A DNA stretch of 64,000 nt. It comes from Verrucomicrobiia bacterium (GTDB lineage Bacteria > Verrucomicrobiota > Verrucomicrobiia > JABWAM01). Where the stretch lies: NCBI GenBank assembly GCA_028687435.1, contig JAQUAF010000016.1, positions 1 through 64,000 of the forward strand, written 5' to 3'. A model generated the notes under the pieces. It did not search any database. It saw only the letters and a list, made by a program, of their open reading frames with translations, and was not told where the DNA came from. The position numbers and the translations under genes are program-made. This document shows positions 49,371-64,000 of this stretch, piece by piece (the first letter of the stretch is position 1; each line of letters starts with the position of its first letter).

Positions 49371-52049
49371 ATGACTTCTTTCTTTCAAAAATTTTTCGCG
49401 AATCCGCTGCAAAGATGGCTCCGGCTTGGTCCGGATCGGACCCCGATCCATCACGATCTGGCGGACGAATTGCCTTACATCGACCTCTGGCAACGCCACC
49501 TGATCGACAAATACGGCTGTGTTCACGGCTTTTACGAGGTGGATTCCCCTCCCGCCGATGTCGCTTCCACCGATCGGCTTGTCCGGTTGCAGGATCAACT
49601 GGTCCAGATCATGGACAAGATGCCGGATCGCATCGTGCAGCAGCAATTTCATTACACCACCAACGGGGATTACCGTCCGCTGCTTTTGGAGCACGCCCGT
49701 CATGAATGCCGCGATCCCCTGGCCGCCCATTTGCGCCAGCTCCGAACCCGGCGTCTTCTGAAGGAATGCGCCGCCCGGCGGCTGGTGAGGGCCTCCACCA
49801 TGATGGTTCTTTCCTGCGCCCCCCAGACGGCGACCGATGCCGCCTCCCCGTTGACTCGCGAATTCCGCCGCTTGGGGGATGCCCAGACCGCCCTGCAACC
49901 CCGAATTCTTCGCGAGGTCGAGTTCGATCAGGCCCTTGGCGCGCTGCATTCCGCCGAAAATGTCATCCGCGACGCCTTTGAACCCCTCGGCATCCGGTTC
50001 AGGCCTCTGGCCTCGGAGGAGATCGCCTCTTACTTTCATCGTTTGTTCAATCCGGATCTCGCCATCGAACAAGGTTTGCCGCTCCCCTACGATTACGACA
50101 CCACCCCTTTTCTGGACGCCTGGTTGATCAACGAAATCCGTCTTCATCCCGACTCCATGCAATGGGGCGGTTATCATCATGCCGTTGTTTCCCTTTTCCA
50201 AAAGCCCCATTCCTGCACGGCGCGAACCCGTCTCATCGACCGTCTTACCCGCGCGCTTCCATTTCATGATCTCCGTGTCAGCCTTTCCATCAGGCGATTG
50301 GACAAGGATGCCGTCCTTGACCAACTGAAACGCAAACGCGCCCAGACACACGGACGCCGTCTGGAGGGCATCAATCCCCTGTTGGACCGCATTGATCCCC
50401 TGTCGAACAAGGACAGGACGGGGCAGGGACAGCAGATGGATATTGAAGCCAATGATGAGATTGAGGAGATCAACAACATTCTCTCCGATCTCAGGGCTGG
50501 CAGGGATCTGTTTGTTCAAGCCCAACTGACCGTTCACTTGTGGCATCGCGATCCGGAAGTTTTGAACCGCCGGCGCGAAATCCTGCTGGCGCGGATGGCC
50601 GACATGAACAAGGCCCGCGCCTACTGGGACCGCAGCAGCACGCTGCCGGTGATGGTCAGTTCGCTGCCCGGCGTTTACCGTCCCATGGAACGCCCGTTGA
50701 AGATGTTCGGACGCATGGCCGCCAGCCTGATTCCCTTGCATCGCGGGTTTGAAGGCGGCCAGCCTCCCGTCTGCATCCTGCGCAACAGCACGGGCGGCCT
50801 GGCGGCGCTCGACCTTTTTTCCACGCGCAACACCGATGCGCCCCTGGCCATCATTTCCGGCGCCATGGGCAGCGGCAAATCCACCCTTGCCAATCAGTTG
50901 TTGCTGCAACACCTCGTCAATGACCCGCTGCTGATCATTTTGGATGTCGGAGGCAGTTACGATCCCCTGGTGCAACTGTTGCGGGGGCGCACCCTTCGTT
51001 TCGACGAAAAGGAACCTTGCGCATTCAATCCGTTGCAGCTTTACGCCACCATCCGCCAGGGAGTCCTGGCCGAACCCGACGCGCTGGCCCGCCAGCGTTT
51101 GATGGCCAATCTTGAAGCCATGCTGTCCAAGCCGGACGATCCCGGCGGCAGCCTGAGCGATTCCCAGCGCAACAGTCTCAGCACCGCCATTGTGAAAACC
51201 TTTGCGGAGGTTGCCCGCCGGAAACTGCCCGCGGCCCGGCTGACGCACCTGCTCGAGTCTCTTGTGAAACTGGCCGATCCGGCTTCGCTCAATCTGGCGG
51301 ACCGGCTCAGGCTTTACGTCCAGGGCGGCGAGTATGGAGCGTGGTTTGACGCTCCGACGCAGCTTGGCGTCCGCGGCGATGATCGTGTGCTTTATTTCGA
51401 CCTGAAAGGCATTCGCCAGCATCCCGCATTGTTGCGCGCCCTGATTCCGCTGGTGGTGAATCTCATTTACGATTTGTTGATGGCCGACCGGAGCCGCCGC
51501 AAGATTCTGCTGGCGGATGAAATGTGGCAGCATATCGCCAATCCCCGGCTCATGGATTTCATTGTCGAGATCGGCAAAACCATTCGCAAGGAGAACGCCG
51601 CCTTTATTGGTTCCACCCAGAGCCTGGCGGACATCACGGCGATTCCCGCGGTTGCCAACGCCCTTGTTCAAAACACCGAGACATGGTTTTTGTTCGATCA
51701 GGGAACCCTGTCTTTCCAGAAACAAGCCGCCGAATTGCTTTCCCTGACTGACGGCGAAACCGGCATTTTGCAATCCCTGCAACGCCGGCAAACGGCGGAT
51801 GACGTCGGAAATCCCGAAACGTGGCGCGAATGCCTGATGGTTCAGGGACGCGGCAAATCGCGCAATTCCGGACGCGTGCGGGTGCAACTGATGCCCGAGG
51901 AATACTGGCTCTCCACAACCAAACCGGACGAATACACCCTGCGCCGGCAGGTGGTGGACCAGTTCAAAGGTGATGTCCTGCGCGCCCTCGATCATCTCGC
52001 CCAACAACACCCGTCCGGTCTCCGGGATCAAAACAAGGCGGTTTCATGA
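49371..52049 (+). CDS. VirB4/TrbE-like conjugative ATPase
   Basis: 892 residues. The N-terminal half matches the VirB4 N-terminal domain in layout and length. The C-terminal RecA-like motor has Walker A GAMGSGKST (497-505), NQLLLQHLVNDPLLIILDVG with a Walker-like strand, KILLADEMW as Walker B (Glu717), and IGSTQSLADI typical of VirB4 motif C. GSYDPLVQLLRGRTLRFDEK and EPCAFNPLQ also fit the family. VirB4 energises pilus biogenesis and substrate transfer. The stop overlaps the next start codon (ATGA). The 915-aa ORF on the opposite strand is a shadow. Confidence 0.85.
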   Translation: MTSFFQKFFANPLQRWLRLGPDRTPIHHDLADELPYIDLWQRHLIDKYGCVHGFYEVDSPPADVASTDRLVRLQDQLVQIMDKMPDRIVQQQFHYTTNGDYRPLLLEHARHECRDPLAAHLRQLRTRRLLKECAARRLVRASTMMVLSCAPQTATDAASPLTREFRRLGDAQTALQPRILREVEFDQALGALHSAENVIRDAFEPLGIRFRPLASEEIASYFHRLFNPDLAIEQGLPLPYDYDTTPFLDAWLINEIRLHPDSMQWGGYHHAVVSLFQKPHSCTARTRLIDRLTRALPFHDLRVSLSIRRLDKDAVLDQLKRKRAQTHGRRLEGINPLLDRIDPLSNKDRTGQGQQMDIEANDEIEEINNILSDLRAGRDLFVQAQLTVHLWHRDPEVLNRRREILLARMADMNKARAYWDRSSTLPVMVSSLPGVYRPMERPLKMFGRMAASLIPLHRGFEGGQPPVCILRNSTGGLAALDLFSTRNTDAPLAIISGAMGSGKSTLANQLLLQHLVNDPLLIILDVGGSYDPLVQLLRGRTLRFDEKEPCAFNPLQLYATIRQGVLAEPDALARQRLMANLEAMLSKPDDPGGSLSDSQRNSLSTAIVKTFAEVARRKLPAARLTHLLESLVKLADPASLNLADRLRLYVQGGEYGAWFDAPTQLGVRGDDRVLYFDLKGIRQHPALLRALIPLVVNLIYDLLMADRSRRKILLADEMWQHIANPRLMDFIVEIGKTIRKENAAFIGSTQSLADITAIPAVANALVQNTETWFLFDQGTLSFQKQAAELLSLTDGETGILQSLQRRQTADDVGNPETWRECLMVQGRGKSRNSGRVRVQLMPEEYWLSTTKPDEYTLRRQVVDQFKGDVLRALDHLAQQHPSGLRDQNKAVS

Positions 52050-56163: not shown

Positions 56164-57213
56164 GTGGAAACGATGAAAGGGAAGTATTCTTTGGCTGTTT
56201 CTGTGGGGTCGTTTTTGTTTTGCTGGGGATTGTTTTTGATGTGGGGGATGCATCAGGCGCGGGAACGCGCCCAAGGACATTACCTGCGATGTCAAGCAGG
56301 GGTGAGGGATCCCCATTTTTATCCCGGCTGGCTGTTGGCGCATGCGCGCCAGGAACGGCCGAACGTGCCCAAAATCGTGTTTTTGGGCGATTCAACGGTC
56401 TATGGCACTTCATCCTCGGCGGCCGGCAAAACGGTGACCGGCGCTTTTGGCAAGAGGTTTGCCCCGGCGCAAGCGCAGATTTTTTCTTTTTCGATCATCA
56501 ACATTGGACCCAAGGCTTTTGACCGGATCATCAACAACTACGTGACGCCTCGGGATTATGTGATCATTCAACTTTTGCCCACCGACAGCTCGCTGCAGGT
56601 CGATTCTCACCTGCAATCAATCAAATCCCGAAACATGGCGCAAGGCTGGATGATTCCTTTTTGGGTGTGTCGCGATGAAATCAACACCCTGTATGGACGG
56701 CCTGTTTCCTTGTTCATTTTTGATGTTTTTGAACGCGTCAAACAGATGTTGCGGCAAAAAACCTTTTTTCCCTTGCCGGACAATGAGCAGTGGAGGCCTT
56801 TCACCGTCGGAAAACTGGCGCATGATGAGGCATATCTGAGGGGATGGGCCCAAAAGATCAGCACCCCCCTGGAAAAGAAATCGCTGCAAATTGTCAGGGA
56901 ATTATTGTCCAATCCCCATCTTGATCCAAAAAAAACAATGGTTTATTTTACTCCCATTAATCCGGCTTTATGGCGGCCGGAAGATCTTCAGCCGGAAGGC
57001 GGTTTCTATCGGAGTTTGACGGCGTTGGAGCGGGTTGTCCGGGAGGCGGGCGTCGTCTGTTTTGATTACAATCGTCTCCCCCCGCCATTCACCGTCGATC
57101 TGTTTCACGACTATTCCCATCTCACCGACGATGGCAGCATAATGCTGGGTGAGCGTTTAGGCATGGATTGGCAGCATGCCTTTCAATCGTCCATCGCAAA
57201 AGTCACTCCCTGA
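56164..57213 (+). CDS. SGNH-fold O-acyltransferase partner of an MBOAT
   Basis: 349 residues. One N-terminal membrane helix (FLFCWGLFLMWGM) anchors a periplasmic SGNH domain. IVFLGDSTVYG contains the catalytic Ser77 in a GDS motif, and LFHDYSHLTDDG holds Asp316 and His319 of block V. Such proteins take an acyl group from an MBOAT partner and place it on an envelope polymer. The MBOAT gene begins 3 bp downstream. Start 56164 (METMKGK) or 56173 (MKGKYSL) are both possible. Confidence 0.8.
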   Translation: METMKGKYSLAVSVGSFLFCWGLFLMWGMHQARERAQGHYLRCQAGVRDPHFYPGWLLAHARQERPNVPKIVFLGDSTVYGTSSSAAGKTVTGAFGKRFAPAQAQIFSFSIINIGPKAFDRIINNYVTPRDYVIIQLLPTDSSLQVDSHLQSIKSRNMAQGWMIPFWVCRDEINTLYGRPVSLFIFDVFERVKQMLRQKTFFPLPDNEQWRPFTVGKLAHDEAYLRGWAQKISTPLEKKSLQIVRELLSNPHLDPKKTMVYFTPINPALWRPEDLQPEGGFYRSLTALERVVREAGVVCFDYNRLPPPFTVDLFHDYSHLTDDGSIMLGERLGMDWQHAFQSSIAKVTP

Positions 57214-57216
57214 CCC

Positions 57217-58386
57217 ATGCTTTTTGCCAGTTTCAGTTTTGTTCTTATTCTTGCCGTTGCGGTGCCGCTGTTCTATTGGATCCGGCCCGAGCGGCGGTAT
57301 GCGGTGATTATTGTCTCCGGCGTGTTTTTTTATGCGTGGAACGCCACTTGGTGGGTGCTCCTGTTTTTTTCCGAATTGCTGATCAGCCGTTTTTATTGCC
57401 GGGGGGCGCGCGCCTGTTGGATCGGCATCGTGCAGGCCATGCTCGTGCTGGGGATTTTCAAATACGGCAGTTTTGTTGAGAATAATGTGAGAGCCGTCCT
57501 GGGCCTTGATCCCGGCCGCACGCTGCCGGTGTTGGCCGTGTTGCCCCTGGCCGTTTCCTTTTTCACCTTTGAATTCGTCCATTTTGCCAGCGACTTTTAC
57601 CGGGAAAAAATAACCGAGCGCAATTTCACCAAATATGCCGCTTTTATTTTCTTCTTTCCAACCTTGGTTGCAGGCCCAATCAAACGCTACCAGGATTTTA
57701 TTCCCAAAGTGGAGGCGGCTGTCCTTGATTGGGAAGGCATCTCTTGCGGCATCACGCGCATTTTCTGGGGATTCTTTAAAAAATTTGCAATTGCGGATGC
57801 CATGGTGGAATGGACCAAATTTCTCGTGCCGGAACATATTCCCTCCCTTACCGGGATTTGGCTGTGGCAGGGGGTGTTTGCCTACGGATTGCGCATATAC
57901 TTTGATTTCAGCGGCTATGCCGACATTGCCATTGGAGCTTCATTGCTCTTTGGCATCACGGTGCCGGAAAATTTTAGCAATCCCTATTTTGCCTCCAATA
58001 TTTCCGATTTCTGGAAACGGTGGCATATTTCCCTTTATCGGTGGCTCGTGGATTACATTTTCATCCCTTTGGGCGGCAGCCGTTGCGGCCGATGGAGGGT
58101 GTGCCTGAACATCATGGCCGTCACGGGTTTCAGCGGATTTTGGCACGGCGCTTCGTGGAATTTTTTAATATGGGGATGGTTCCATGGCATTATGCTGTGC
58201 ATTTTCCATTGGTACAGCCATTGGCGGGGAGAACAGACGGAAGAGCCGCCGTCCTGGTGGTCCTATTCAAAACGCATCGGCGCAATTCTTTTTACCTACA
58301 TTCTGGTGAATTTTGGCTGGACGTTTTTCATCATGGACTTTCATTCCCTGGGCATCGCCTTGCCCAAGATGTTTTTTCTCAAATGA
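57217..58386 (+). CDS. MBOAT-family membrane O-acyltransferase
   Basis: 389 residues, shorter than most (about 460-500). Multiple hydrophobic segments are visible. YFDFSGYADIAIGASLLFGI, FWKRWHISLYRWLVDYIFIP and GFSGFWHGASWNFLIW (His310, the conserved MBOAT active His) identify the family. The protein moves an acyl group across the inner membrane to a periplasmic carrier. It ends MFFLK, while many Gram-negative homologues continue with a further helix and an acyl-shuttle motif. Here that part appears to be the separate overlapping ORF downstream. Confidence 0.88.
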   Translation: MLFASFSFVLILAVAVPLFYWIRPERRYAVIIVSGVFFYAWNATWWVLLFFSELLISRFYCRGARACWIGIVQAMLVLGIFKYGSFVENNVRAVLGLDPGRTLPVLAVLPLAVSFFTFEFVHFASDFYREKITERNFTKYAAFIFFFPTLVAGPIKRYQDFIPKVEAAVLDWEGISCGITRIFWGFFKKFAIADAMVEWTKFLVPEHIPSLTGIWLWQGVFAYGLRIYFDFSGYADIAIGASLLFGITVPENFSNPYFASNISDFWKRWHISLYRWLVDYIFIPLGGSRCGRWRVCLNIMAVTGFSGFWHGASWNFLIWGWFHGIMLCIFHWYSHWRGEQTEEPPSWWSYSKRIGAILFTYILVNFGWTFFIMDFHSLGIALPKMFFLK

Positions 58387-58499
58387 ATGCCTCGCCTCTT
58401 CTCAAAGCCATCGGCATCGGTGTGCTCTGGTTTTTTCTCAGCGCCACGGCCTGGATCTGCTGCAACAGCGACTTGGAGTTTATTTATATCAATTTTTGA
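58383..58499 (+). CDS. 38-residue membrane microprotein ending FIYINF (DltX-like acyl shuttle)
   Basis: MNASPLLKAIGIGVLWFFLS then ATAWICCNSDLEFIYINF. One transmembrane helix spans about residues 9-26, followed by a short periplasmic tail. The final hexapeptide FIYINF fits F-x-Y-x-x-F. In the Dlt pathway the Tyr of such a C-terminal hexapeptide, carried on the microprotein DltX, receives the acyl group from the MBOAT and passes it to the serine acyltransferase. The ATG overlaps the MBOAT stop (ATGA), and the SGNH gene lies upstream, so all three expected parts are adjacent. It is below the ORF-track cutoff. Its role here is inferred from motif, topology and position. Confidence 0.75.
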   Translation: MNASPLLKAIGIGVLWFFLSATAWICCNSDLEFIYINF

Positions 58500-58624: not shown

Positions 58625-59335
58625 TCAAGATTTAATCATGCCGTCGTGCAGTTCGTTGGCCCGCTGATAGCTTGCCGGCGAACCGATATCCACCAGCAAA
58701 TCCGCGCTTTCCCATCCCAACAGGCGCGGAAGCAGGCGGGGGATGAAGTCGCGGGCGATGTCGGCGGGGGCGGCGGGCGGCAAGAGAGCCAGCGATTCCC
58801 GCGAAAAAACATAAATGCCGGAATTGGCCAGGTTGGAAACCGGGGCGGCGGGTTTTTCCTCAAAAGCCGTCACCCAGCCGCGGGCATCCAGGGTGGCGAT
58901 GCCGCATTCCTTGGGGCGGGCGGTGCGATGGAGAAGCATGGTCCCCAAAGGATGTTCGCCATGGTGTTGTTCATGACAGCGGATCAGTTCGGCGGCATTG
59001 AACAGGGTCCAGTTGTCCGCATAACACACCAGGAAGGATTCATCGTTTTCCACGAATGAACGGTTTGCCCGCAACGTTCCGGCGCTGCCCAGCAACACCG
59101 GCTCGTAAGCGGTGTGGACGCGCATGTTTCCCCGCCAGCTTTTCACAAAGGCATCAACCTGCTGGCTCAGATAATGGGTGTTCAAAAGAACATCTTTCAC
59201 CCCGGCCCGTTGCAGGGAGTCAAACCAGTGCCCCAAAAGCGGTTTCCCGCCAATGGGCAGCAGACACTTTGGAGTGTCCAAGGTCAAAGGACGGAGCCGG
59301 ACTCCCAGCCCCGCCGCCAGAAGGAAGGCTTTCAT
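58625..59335 (-). CDS. Sugar-1-phosphate nucleotidyltransferase (HddC/MPG-like)
   Basis: About 236 residues from ATG 59335. LLAAGLGVRLRPLTLDTPKC followed by LLPIGGKPLL is the nucleotidyltransferase signature G-x-G-x-R-l-x-P-l-T-x-x-x-P-K. Other features are EPVLLGSAGTL, FLVCYADNWTLF with a metal-binding Asp, and VTAFEEKP with a metal-binding Glu. It forms an NDP-sugar from a sugar-1-phosphate. Divergent to a heptose-kinase-like gene 140 bp away, it likely makes a nucleotide-activated heptose or mannose-type sugar. The longer track start has no support. Confidence 0.8.
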   Translation of the reverse strand: MKAFLLAAGLGVRLRPLTLDTPKCLLPIGGKPLLGHWFDSLQRAGVKDVLLNTHYLSQQVDAFVKSWRGNMRVHTAYEPVLLGSAGTLRANRSFVENDESFLVCYADNWTLFNAAELIRCHEQHHGEHPLGTMLLHRTARPKECGIATLDARGWVTAFEEKPAAPVSNLANSGIYVFSRESLALLPPAAPADIARDFIPRLLPRLLGWESADLLVDIGSPASYQRANELHDGMIKS

Positions 59336-59475
59336 GATGGATGCGGCAGGTTGAATGTCCCTGCGGAGGATGTCAAGCCATGGGCAACCGGCAGGTTTTT
59401 CTTGTTTCACCCCAAAGGAAATGCATCTAATAAACGGCTCGCTTGGACAAGAGGCTTGATCCGGCGCGCCCATCC

Positions 59476-60468
59476 ATGATTATCACTCAAACCCCCCTTC
59501 GTGTCAGCCTTGCGGGCGGAGGCACGGATATTCCCCAATACTACACCCGGCATGGCGGTGAGGTGCTTGGCCTTGGCATCGACAAGTACCTTTTTGTCTG
59601 GATCAAGGAACGGTTTGACCGCCAGATCATTGTCAATTGGACGCGCAAGGAGGTGGTTTCCCAGCTTGATGAAATCCAGCATGAATTGGTGCGGGAAGCG
59701 GCGCGAATGGCGGACCTGGCTCATGGATTCGAGGTCACCACCCTGGCGGATATTCCCTCGGAGGGTTCCGGTTTGGGATCGTCGAGCGCCTTGACGGTCT
59801 GCCTGTTGAACGCCTTTTTTCAGCATCAGGGGATGCAGCTTTCAAATGCCGAGCTGGCCCAGCGGGCCTGCGATATTGAATTGCGCGTTCTCGGCAAACC
59901 CATGGGCAAGCAGGATCAGTACCTGGCGGCTTTCGGCGGCTTGCAGCATCTTTTTTTTCATCCGGACGAAACGGTCACCCGCGAGACCGTCAAAACCACT
60001 CCTGACGCCCTGCGGCAGCTCAATCACAACCTGCTGTTGTATTATACCGGCATCACCCGGAAAGCCTCCGCGCCGCTTAAGGTCCAGATCGATGGAATGG
60101 AGAAGCTGTTTCCGCTTTATCATCAGATCAAACAAATGGCGGGGCGAATGCGCAAGGTGATCGAGGCGGGCCAGATGGATGAAGTGGGGGTGTTATTGCA
60201 CGAGGCATGGGAGATCAAACGTCAATTTGCCGCGGTGACGATGCCGGAGATTGATCGCATGTATGAGACGGCCCGGCAGAATGGCGCCTCGGGCGGAAAA
60301 TTGTGCGGCGCGGGAGGAGGCGGTTTTCTTCTGGTTTATTGCCCCCTGCATGAGCAGGAACGCTTGCGCCGGGCCATGAGCGCCTATCCGGAAATGCCTT
60401 TTGAAATCGATCGGATCGGCACGCGGGCCATCCTTAATGTTCAACGCCGCATGTGGAAGATTCGCTGA
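59476..60468 (+). CDS. GHMP kinase, D-glycero-D-manno-heptose 7-phosphate kinase-like
   Basis: About 330 residues. IITQTPLRVSLAGGGTDIPQ is the typical start of HddA-type kinases. IPSEGSGLGSSSALTVCLLN is the GHMP ATP-binding loop and SGGKLCGAGGGGFLLVYC is motif 3. HddA phosphorylates D-glycero-D-manno-heptose 7-phosphate at C1 on the route to GDP-heptose. Fucose or other sugar kinases of this fold remain possible. The stop overlaps the epimerase start (TGATG). ATG 59476 is chosen for the conserved N-terminus. GmhA and GmhB partners are not in the window. Confidence 0.8.
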   Translation: MIITQTPLRVSLAGGGTDIPQYYTRHGGEVLGLGIDKYLFVWIKERFDRQIIVNWTRKEVVSQLDEIQHELVREAARMADLAHGFEVTTLADIPSEGSGLGSSSALTVCLLNAFFQHQGMQLSNAELAQRACDIELRVLGKPMGKQDQYLAAFGGLQHLFFHPDETVTRETVKTTPDALRQLNHNLLLYYTGITRKASAPLKVQIDGMEKLFPLYHQIKQMAGRMRKVIEAGQMDEVGVLLHEAWEIKRQFAAVTMPEIDRMYETARQNGASGGKLCGAGGGGFLLVYCPLHEQERLRRAMSAYPEMPFEIDRIGTRAILNVQRRMWKIR

Positions 60469-61601
60469 TGACCGGAAAAGAAAAAGTATTGGTGACAGGC
60501 GGCGCGGGATTCATTGGTTCGCATACGGTCCGCCAGCTTCTGGCCGCCGGTTATGCCGTCAGAGCGCTGGATAATTTGTCGCCCCCTGTGCATGAGGGCA
60601 ATCATGAATGGCCTTCCTGGCTGCCGGACGAAGTCGAGCGGTTGGAGGGGGATGTCCGCCGTCCGGAGGATTGGGCGGCCGCGCTTGAAGGGGTGGATTT
60701 TGTCATCCATCTTGCCGCGTATCAGGATCTGCTGCCTGATTTCTCCAAGTTTTTCAGCGTCAATGCCACGGGCACCGCCCTGCTTTATGAGACAATTGTG
60801 GCGCGCAAGCTGCCTGTGCGCAAGGTGTTGATTGCCAGCTCCCAATTCGTCTATGGCGAAGGCCAGGGACTCTGCGCCGCTCACGGGGAAGTGTCTTTGC
60901 CGGGAAGGAATCCCGATGCCCTTGAAAAGGGGCTTTGGGAACCGGTTTGTCCGCTTTGCGGCGGACCGGTTGAAACGCAGCCTTTGAGGGAAAACCATGC
61001 CGCGCCAAACAACCAATACGCCATTTCCAAATATTCACAGGAACTGACAGCCATCGCCATCGGACGCAATTACGGCATTCCCAGCGTGGCCCTGCGTTAT
61101 TCGATTGTTCAAGGGCCGCACCAATCCTTTCGCAACGCTTATTCCGGAGTGATGCGCGTTTTCACGCTTCAATTGTTGAACGGCCAGCGTCCCACGGTTT
61201 TTGAGGACGGCAGCCAGAAGCGGGACTTCGTGAATGTCACGGATGTGGCCGGAGCCAATCTTTTGGTGTTGAAAAATCCGGAGGCCGATTACCAGGTATT
61301 CAATGTCGGAGGGGGCAAGGCATGGACGGTGGTTGATTTTGCGCGTTTGGCGGCGGAAGTGACGGGAAGGAAGATTGAGCCCCGGATTACCGGTGAATAC
61401 CGGGTGGGGGATACCCGGCACAGTTTTTCGGACATCTCGAAAATTCAGCGCCTCGGTTGGCAGCCTTCCAAAACCGTGCGCGAAAGCATTGAAGAGTATT
61501 CCTCCTGGATCACCAGTCAGCGTTTGGAAATTGATTATGTCGGCGAAGCCTTGCGCAACCTCAGAACCTCGGGCATTCTCAAACGCCCTTCCCCTGTATG
61601 A
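60468..61601 (+). CDS. NAD-dependent sugar epimerase/dehydratase with a Cys-rich insert
   Basis: About 377 residues. VLVTGGAGFIGSHTVRQLLA is the NAD-binding TGxxGxxG motif, and QYAISKYSQE supplies the catalytic Tyr-x-x-x-Lys. Between these is an insert, EPVCPLCGGPVETQ, with a CxxC pair seen in a subset of extended SDR epimerases such as dTDP-L-rhamnose 4-epimerase-like proteins. Only one CxxC is evident. It acts on a nucleotide sugar. It is translationally coupled to the GHMP kinase gene by the ATG-TGA overlap. The track start at 60453 is a GTG, less likely than ATG 60468. Confidence 0.85.
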   Translation: MTGKEKVLVTGGAGFIGSHTVRQLLAAGYAVRALDNLSPPVHEGNHEWPSWLPDEVERLEGDVRRPEDWAAALEGVDFVIHLAAYQDLLPDFSKFFSVNATGTALLYETIVARKLPVRKVLIASSQFVYGEGQGLCAAHGEVSLPGRNPDALEKGLWEPVCPLCGGPVETQPLRENHAAPNNQYAISKYSQELTAIAIGRNYGIPSVALRYSIVQGPHQSFRNAYSGVMRVFTLQLLNGQRPTVFEDGSQKRDFVNVTDVAGANLLVLKNPEADYQVFNVGGGKAWTVVDFARLAAEVTGRKIEPRITGEYRVGDTRHSFSDISKIQRLGWQPSKTVRESIEEYSSWITSQRLEIDYVGEALRNLRTSGILKRPSPV

Positions 61602-61707
61602 GCGATGAATTGTTTCCGGGCATGATTCTCTTTGGTTGCGGTCTGCAACAGCCGCAACCACCACCGGATCGGCGGAAAAAAGGGAGGCATTATCCATTGG
61701 CTGGCTG

Positions 61708-63141
61708 ATGGCAACGGAAAAGGACCCTTTTATCATGCGTTTTCAATCGCTCGCCTCAAAAGTTTTTTGGTGGCAACAGGCCGCCAATGTGCTGACTTTT
61801 GGCCGGTCCATTCTGTTGATGTGCCTGATCAGCGCCGAAGGTTATGGAACCTTTGCGCTGGCCAGCGTGTTGCTTTCGTATTTTTCAATTTTGCGCAGCT
61901 TTGATTTTCGCGCCCCGGTTGTGACGGCGCCGGAGGCGCATCAGCGGTTGTTGCGAACGCAATACGCGGTGGAGACGGGCCTTTGCCTTGTCAACATTGT
62001 CTTGTTTGCGATCGCGACGCCGCTTCTGGCGCGATGGTATCAGAATTCCCTGCTTCTGGTGACGGGAGCCTTGCTTTTGGCGGACGGGGTGGATGGCTGC
62101 GCCGGCACGCCCCTGTATCTCACGGAACGGGCGTTGGAGTTTCCATACCTCACACGGCTCAAAGCGATGATCGGTTATTTTTCCTTTGCGATCTGCCTGG
62201 TCTTGGCGTGGTTTGGTTGGGGCGCATGGGCCCTGGCGGTGGATCGGATGGTGGTTTCCTCCCTGGTGGCCCTCTGCATTTGGCGGCGCAAAGTCTGGTC
62301 GCCGGGCTTTGCTTTTGATCGGGAAAGTTTTCGTTATCTTTTGAATTTTGGCGGCGCCTTGTTTTTTGCCGGTTTGTGGGGGAAAATCCTGTTTGGATTC
62401 GATATTTTTCTTGTGGGCACCCTGCTGGGTGAAACGTCCGCGGGTTTCTATTCCCGCGCCCAGGTTTTCGCGCGCCTGCCGATGGATCTTGGCACGGGTT
62501 TTCTCGGATTGATGGCTCTTGCCCTTTACGCAGCCGCCCGGAGGGAATCCAACGAACAGACTTATCAGCGCTATGAAATGATGAGCGCCAACATCGCCCG
62601 CATCAGCATGTGGATGGCGGGTGGAATCGCCCTGGCGCTGGATCAAGCCCTGCCGTTTCTTTTGAAAAAAAAGGGTCAGGAGTGGTTGCCCATGGTCCCG
62701 ATTTTTTGGGCCCTGTTGCCCTATGCGGTGGGACGGCCGCTGTTCCAAAACGCGGCCCAATGCATCACCTCTTTGCATGAACAGAGGTTTTTTCTATTGG
62801 TCGTGTCAGTCTTGAGCGTGATTTACGGGGCCCTTCTGATTTGGTTGGTAAAGGTGAGTATTTTGTGGACTGCCGCAGCCAGCGGACTGGTATTGATCAT
62901 CGGGTTCTTCTGGCTGGAACACCGGCTTCACCGGCGATTGGGGGGCACGAGTTGGCGGACCGCGTTGATGCCTCTGCTATTGCTGGCCGCGGCATTGGCT
63001 TTGCGGCTCGGATTGGACCGGCTTTCCCTGGACGCGGCGTGGAAAATGACCGCGATCGTCATCCTGGGCCTGGTTTATACCGCCGCCGCCTATGGCGAAT
63101 GGCGCTTCCACTGCCATAAAAAGATCGGCCTGGAGACGTAA
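61708..63141 (+). CDS. Wzx-like polysaccharide flippase (MATE/PST superfamily)
   Basis: About 477 residues with 12 or more hydrophobic segments, no signal peptide, and the pattern of PST/Wzx transporters: LTFGRSILLMCLISAEGYGT and FALASVLLSYFSI early, ETSAGFYSRAQVFARLPMDL in the middle, and paired helices at the end. Such proteins flip lipid-linked glycan units to the periplasm. It is downstream of the sugar-nucleotide genes on the same strand. Start ATG 61708 (MATEKDPF) is chosen, but 61735 (MRFQSLA) is possible; the track start at 61636 has no support. Confidence 0.75.
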   Translation: MATEKDPFIMRFQSLASKVFWWQQAANVLTFGRSILLMCLISAEGYGTFALASVLLSYFSILRSFDFRAPVVTAPEAHQRLLRTQYAVETGLCLVNIVLFAIATPLLARWYQNSLLLVTGALLLADGVDGCAGTPLYLTERALEFPYLTRLKAMIGYFSFAICLVLAWFGWGAWALAVDRMVVSSLVALCIWRRKVWSPGFAFDRESFRYLLNFGGALFFAGLWGKILFGFDIFLVGTLLGETSAGFYSRAQVFARLPMDLGTGFLGLMALALYAAARRESNEQTYQRYEMMSANIARISMWMAGGIALALDQALPFLLKKKGQEWLPMVPIFWALLPYAVGRPLFQNAAQCITSLHEQRFFLLVVSVLSVIYGALLIWLVKVSILWTAAASGLVLIIGFFWLEHRLHRRLGGTSWRTALMPLLLLAAALALRLGLDRLSLDAAWKMTAIVILGLVYTAAAYGEWRFHCHKKIGLET

Positions 63142-63148
63142 AGGCAAT

Positions 63149-63691
63149 TCACATAAAAAGCGGATGGGCCGATTGGGAAAATTGAATTTCCGTTTCACGG
63201 CGATGTCCCACAACCCGGGCCGGATTGCCGGCCACCACCTCCCACGGCGCAACCGATTTTACCACCACCGCGCCGGCGGCCACCACCGCGCCCTTGCCAA
63301 TGGTGACTCCCTTCAAAATGATGGCATGCGAGGCAATCCAAGCCCCATCTTCAATGCGGATGGGCGCGGTGCGCATGCGAAAATCGGGAGAGTTAATATC
63401 GTGATCGGCAGTATGGAGGCTCACGCGGTGGGCTAAAACGACATGCCTGCCGATTTCAATGGCATCGGAAGCGTTGAGCAGGCAATCGGGATTGACGGCG
63501 CTCATTTCGCCAATATGGATACGGTTGATGCAATTGCCCATGAGAACAAGCCCCGCAAAAAGATGCGCACCGTTGTCGATCCTCATTTTTAGCGCCGTCC
63601 GGTACCAGAGGAGGCGAAACGCATGCCACGGCACGCGATTCACGACATGGTTGGTTAAATAGTAAATCAAGTAAAAACAAAAGGTTTTCAT
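63149..63691 (-). CDS. Hexapeptide-repeat acetyltransferase (WcaF-like)
   Basis: About 180 residues from ATG 63691. Left-handed beta-helix repeats are visible: IHIGEMSAVNPDCLLNASDA, IEIGRHVVLAHRVSL, IRIEDGAWIASHAIILKGVT and IGKGAVVAAGAVVVKSVAPW followed by EVVAGNPARVVG. HTADHD supplies the catalytic His region. The family O-acetylates sugars of exopolysaccharide. It is convergent to the flippase gene with 7 bp between stops. The gene to its right is on the same strand and 8 bp away. Confidence 0.85.
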   Translation of the reverse strand: MKTFCFYLIYYLTNHVVNRVPWHAFRLLWYRTALKMRIDNGAHLFAGLVLMGNCINRIHIGEMSAVNPDCLLNASDAIEIGRHVVLAHRVSLHTADHDINSPDFRMRTAPIRIEDGAWIASHAIILKGVTIGKGAVVAAGAVVVKSVAPWEVVAGNPARVVGHRRETEIQFSQSAHPLFM

Positions 63692-63699
63692 GATGGATT

Positions 63700-64000
63700 T
63701 TACTGCGGTTTGCGAAGGCATCCGCGAAAACGGAGGCCAAACCAAAAAGCCAGAAGGGAATTTTCGAGCCATGGCAAACGATCAACCAAACGATTGGGAA
63801 AAGTGCAAAAGCGGGTGTAGGGGCGCACCTTTCCATCGAAGCCAACCTTGCGAAAAATCCGATTGATCGAAAAGGGGGAAGGCTTGTTGACGTGACAGGG
63901 AGCATGATCAATTTTGAACCATGGACGGTTGGTCCATTTGAGCGCGCGCAATAGAGCGAGCAAGGGATTCAAAAGGAGGCAAAACCATTCAGCCACAATA
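63700..64000 (-). CDS. C-terminal part of a probable SAM-dependent methyltransferase (partial)
   Basis: The reading frame is open to the window edge, so the 5' part lies beyond 64000. The visible about 100 residues include IDHAPCHVNKPSPFSINRIF and RKVGF, which resemble the final segment of class I methyltransferases (H-VN-x-F/S-x-x-x-L-x-x-lf-x-x-aGF) found in glycan clusters. The Rossmann motifs would be outside the window, so the call is tentative. The TAA at 63700-63702 is 8 bp from the acetyltransferase start. Confidence 0.4.
   Translation of the reverse strand, partial: IVAEWFCLLLNPLLALLRALKWTNRPWFKIDHAPCHVNKPSPFSINRIFRKVGFDGKVRPYTRFCTFPNRLVDRLPWLENSLLAFWFGLRFRGCLRKPQ

Follow-up and report, generated by a model that had tools for sequence, protein, structure and literature searches.

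In the tyrosine-shuttle model of MBOAT-SGNH polymer acylation, the acyl group is passed on by the tyrosine of a hexapeptide: an acyl-Tyr gives rise to an acyl-Ser on the SGNH protein, which then acylates the polymer. This chemistry has been shown for PatA/PatB and reported for DltX (PMC12148441). In PatA-PatB, AlgI and WssH/CcsH, the hexapeptide is fused to the MBOAT, which carries two extra helices (PMC12148441). In DltX-DltB-DltD, a short MBOAT is served by a separate single-helix microprotein ending in FxYxxF, next to an SGNH partner. According to a mechanism paper from 2025, a DltX-like microprotein is missing from MBOAT/SGNH pathways outside Dlt (PMC12148441). Our literature search, subscription papers aside, returned no report contradicting such a Dlt-only microprotein.

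The locus described here, from a Verrucomicrobia-like bacterium, has features of both systems. With PatA-PatB, AlgI and WssH/CcsH it shares the MBOAT family, probably the SGNH family, the hexapeptide and probably an acyl-CoA donor, but its motif lies on a separate one-helix protein and the other helix of the fused form is absent. Its short MBOAT, separate microprotein and probable SGNH partner resemble those of DltX-DltB-DltD, from which it differs by the absence of a nearby DltA, a microprotein outside Pfam DltX, another gene order and a surface-polysaccharide context; in contrast to Dlt, such split systems occur mostly in Gram-negative phyla. The parts are of known kinds; their arrangement outside Dlt appears to be unreported.

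Organization of the locus

The window, i.e. the whole stretch of 64,000 nucleotides that was analysed, contains the following genes.

56173..57213, + strand: SGNH-like acyl acceptor/transferase gene (ATG, 346 aa; or from 56164, GTG, 349 aa), with an N-terminal helix, GDS (Ser74) and DYSH (Asp313, His316)
57217..58386, + strand: MBOAT acyltransferase, 389 aa, without C-terminal motif, conserved His270 and His310
58383..58499, + strand: candidate acyl-shuttle microprotein of 38 aa with one membrane helix, ending in FIYINF, candidate acceptor Tyr35
58625-59344, - strand: sugar nucleotidyltransferase (Pfam)
59479-60468, + strand: GHMP kinase (Pfam)
60471-61601, + strand: NAD epimerase (Pfam)
61636-63141, + strand: flippase-like protein (Pfam)
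63149-63772, - strand: hexapeptide acetyltransferase (Pfam)

The stop codon of the MBOAT gene and the start codon of the micro-ORF share the sequence ATGA, a 4-nt overlap. Translation from the ATG at 58383 to the TGA at 58499 gives MNASPLLKAIGIGVLWFFLSATAWICCNSDLEFIYINF, with a single hydrophobic helix at residues 9-27 approximately (mean hydropathy 1.96). The preliminary description had reported an SGNH-MBOAT pair with an overlapping 38-codon ORF encoding one helix and FIYINF; the genes, their coordinates and the helix are confirmed. By their Pfam assignments, the genes between 58625 and 63772 place the triad in a surface-polysaccharide context. A gene for a TraG P-loop (VirB4-like) ATPase (window positions 49371-52049, 8.7e-36) lies some 4 kb before the MBOAT cluster, on its upstream side, and is possibly the edge of a conjugative element.

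The MBOAT and its SGNH partner

The 389-aa protein is an MBOAT with certainty. It passes the Pfam MBOAT model PF03062 (1.6e-32, 113.5 bits against a cut-off of 27), and His310 is invariant among 17 aligned proteins. Its nearest sequence relative in the PDB is DltB (3e-26), which is also the top fold match (6bug/8jem, TM-score 0.71-0.77) of its AF2 model (pLDDT 88.7). The chain terminates at FFLK, with no tail: both the hexapeptide and the two extra helices of a fused PatA/AlgI-type protein are missing. It had been noted that this MBOAT is short and that its motif lies on a separate gene, and both points hold. A single terminal helix had been thought missing; the tail helix is indeed absent, but the fused form has two, of which the micro-ORF supplies the last only.

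The SGNH-like protein is probably an SGNH enzyme and is the least certain of the three parts. Ser74, Asp313 and His316 are invariant among 16 aligned proteins, and in split loci the gene adjoining the microprotein bears GDS or GNS, plus DxxH. The window protein itself has no Pfam match; 11 of 16 relatives from split loci match Lipase_GDSL_2 and three match DltD. With a profile made from the SGNH proteins of split loci, it comes top of 350 window ORFs, at a weak E-value of 0.0076. Its structure model is poor (pLDDT 63), with weak fold matches that include DltD and esterases.

Relation to Dlt

The likeness to DltB raises the question of whether the window encodes Dlt proper, that is DltX/DltB/DltD with a D-alanyl carrier protein. 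DltB is the closest relative of the MBOAT both by fold and in NCBIfam, and true dlt operons with a Pfam DltX occur in the same class (L131 and L137). Against the DltB equivalog TIGR04091, however, the window MBOAT scores 171 bits, under the cut-off of 375, and the MBOAT tree sets it apart from the dlt pair. The microprotein has no match to Pfam DltX (PF12459) at E-values up to 10, and its membership of that family was rejected, whereas the microproteins of the dlt-type loci L131 and L137 are recognised by that model (33 and 29 bits against 25). Neither the window nor the regions around the genome's two other split loci contain the DltA signature. Of 52 split or dlt loci scanned, 49 lack it; the signature occurs in L131, in L137 and once 2.4 kb upstream of L164. 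A Dlt operon has DltA and DltC beside DltB: judged on DltA, whose motif is absent, the window has none. Dlt proper is therefore very unlikely. Since the microprotein falls outside Pfam DltX and nearly all of these loci lack DltA, the window system is a DltX-like split architecture outside Dlt.

The two dlt loci (genomes G132 and G231, for L131 and L137) belong to a Gram-negative class; there the Pfam-DltX microprotein is followed directly by the gene with the DltA signature, then by the MBOAT. Seven further MBOATs (L072, L074, L075, L080, L084, L090 and L091) carry a long hydrophilic extension at the C-terminus and lack their own motif; no microprotein was found within about 1-1.5 kb. L137 is a longer stretch of the L074 locus, in which DltX is present further upstream.

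A family of microproteins with a conserved C-terminus

The window microprotein combines the traits of a DltX-like shuttle: a single helix, a C-terminal FxYxxF and a position beside a motif-less MBOAT. Separate shuttle-type proteins across bacteria have 36-65 residues and a strongly conserved C-terminal tail, typically GQSSKFIYIDF. With a profile trained without it, the window ORF ranks first of 682 small window ORFs (E-value 0.0014, 14 bits; runner-up 0.0079). As this leave-one-out E-value is just 0.0014, we count the microprotein, on its sequence, as a diverged member of the family. Pfam and NCBIfam yielded no model for these short genes, nor did the microprotein profile pick up a sensible homolog among PDB sequences.

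Conservation counts for the motif are partly selected for, and the unselected test used a profile from which the last six residues had been left out: all 43 distinct matches end in FxYxxF, many of them being training members. The tyrosine and the final phenylalanine are retained across the family while the remainder of the protein varies; the preliminary description had proposed these two residues for a conservation test. In L129, L130 and L071, the microprotein lies directly upstream of the MBOAT and the first motif phenylalanine is substituted (VVYQGF, AVYQNF), so that the first Phe may be less important than Tyr and the last Phe.

Pairs of Paenibacillus microproteins show dN of 0.03-0.12 against dS of 0.5-1.05 (dN/dS about 0.05-0.2); in Acidobacteria, dN is 0.05-0.30 against a dS of 0.7 to saturation, again a low ratio. 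These values, which come from relatives as the window gene has no close one, indicate that the family is translated and constrained. Charges on either side of the helix point to no single orientation across the family: among 51 microproteins, the N-terminal side is more positive in 20, equal in 16 and less positive in 15. In the window microprotein they are +1 and -2.

Distribution of the split architecture

The nearest relatives of the window MBOAT (42-46% identity) are all split and have the same kind of separate microprotein; they come from Verrucomicrobia, Acidobacteria, Planctomycetes, Myxococcota and Armatimonadetes. A scan of 80 loci found split systems in these five groups as well as in Sericytochromatia and Paenibacillus. 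In searches of the class and phylum, MBOATs are mostly fused, with split ones in several families, each accompanied by a small ORF ending in FIYVAF or FIYIDF. The split architecture thus recurs in at least seven phyla, extending the Gram-negative case first proposed, and is found three times in this genome alone. Loci across so many phyla contradict the statement that non-Dlt MBOAT/SGNH pathways lack a microprotein (PMC12148441). The order of genes in the triads varies (MBOAT-X-SGNH, MBOAT-SGNH-X, SGNH-X-MBOAT, SGNH-MBOAT-X, where X is the microprotein) and the three are kept together, with gene overlaps of 1-8 nt at many split loci. The few plasmid records examined held no annotated split example.

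Co-occurrence was assessed on 161 distinct closed MBOATs, 50 without a terminal F.Y..F of their own and 111 fused. A microprotein was defined as a small ORF, separate from the MBOAT gene and adjoining it on the same strand, that encodes a helix and a terminal F.Y..F. It is found beside 47 of the 50 non-fused MBOATs. As for the three exceptions, L128 is a contig end, L216 is in fact fused and has Tyr in the first position, and L161 is an archaeal contig. Frameshifted fused genes account for two of the 47 (L011 and L167), which makes the clean count 45/47. Among fused MBOATs, 2/111 were flagged, the supposed microprotein being a neighbouring fused MBOAT in both cases, leaving no true separate copy (0/111). 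Controls gave 0/161 with permuted motifs and 1/161 on the opposite strand, and exclude a chance motif. Fisher's p of 2e-34 is overstated, because the MBOAT sequences are related and the trait changes once on the tree. The conservation of the ORF in relatives, on which the preliminary description had staked its reading, is borne out: in the split clades, practically no MBOAT is without an adjoining FxYxxF microprotein.

The split form is not a broken fused gene

Could the small ORF be the remnant of a fused MBOAT, broken by a local frameshift, a deletion or an assembly error? Fusion is common among homologs from the same family and class, and L011 and L167 show that genuine frameshifted copies do occur elsewhere. 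Past the end of the split MBOATs, fused tails extend over 64-94 aa, many with two helices recognisable by hydropathy, which agrees with the pair of additional helices reported in PMC12148441. At the window locus, however, the DNA for the penultimate helix is absent. The nearest homologs of the window MBOAT are, moreover, all split: in the MBOAT tree, the fused form makes up one group (support 99) and the window falls in an all-split group of 27 members (support 95). Fused and split MBOATs part at one branch, where the trait changes once. The tree and the missing DNA together rule out a frameshift remnant, which we consider extremely improbable; the local frameshift, named at the outset as one possible refutation of the split reading, did not materialise.

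It is an evenly balanced proposition that polymer acylation by non-Dlt MBOAT-SGNH systems has a second general architecture, that with the separate microprotein, spread over at least seven phyla and overlooked because its genes are short, with the fused PatA/AlgI form derived by a single fusion.

Proposed function

The locus very probably encodes a three-part surface-glycan acyltransferase: a tail-less MBOAT, a 38-residue single-helix shuttle microprotein and an SGNH transferase. The MBOAT would move an acyl group, probably acetyl from acetyl-CoA, across the membrane to Tyr35 of FIYINF. The acylated tail of the microprotein would then swing to the SGNH serine, and the SGNH protein would esterify the polymer. 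Complex formation, the acyl-Tyr intermediate, donor and polymer are all inferred, the shuttle chemistry by analogy with DltX and PatA/PatB. The sugar-nucleotide, flippase and acetyltransferase genes nearby make a surface polysaccharide the probable target. As no DltA is present, an acyl-CoA is the probable donor.

A different role has been discussed for DltX, a regulatory one (PMC11035591), and the microprotein could likewise serve to stabilise the MBOAT, as a structural or regulatory subunit whose tyrosine carries no acyl group; the carrier role is, after all, drawn here from analogy. We find this improbable: Tyr and the final Phe are kept amid an otherwise variable protein, PatA and DltX use this very hexapeptide as their carrier (PMC12148441), and a separate copy occurs only where the MBOAT has no motif of its own. 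The shuttle reading is further supported by the fact that fused tail and separate microprotein exclude each other, and by the best fold match of the MBOAT, DltB, which is the one MBOAT known to work with a separate shuttle.

These natural two-piece systems allow mutation, tagging or exchange of the acyl carrier by itself, which opens the tyrosine-shuttle model to direct tests beyond teichoic acids. The loci also point to a whole family of short genes that Pfam and NCBIfam do not appear to cover.

Other MBOATs of the same genome

The assembly contains four MBOATs, three of them split. Besides that of the window, the short MBOATs of C66 (L002) and of C123 at about 67 kb (L004) have their own microproteins, in the order SGNH-X-MBOAT. 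These microproteins overlap the SGNH stop codon by an ATGA and end in EFVYAVF and AFVYSLF. The L004 system (G000:C123, about 66568-68999) lies just outside the window; it is complete, is encoded by the other strand and belongs to the same polysaccharide gene cluster as the window triad, at a distance of about 8 kb. The fourth MBOAT, in C108 (L003), is fused: it has 538 aa and ends in FIYFQF. Directly upstream of it is a carrier-protein gene (PP-binding, 7e-05), which may indicate a carrier-bound donor.
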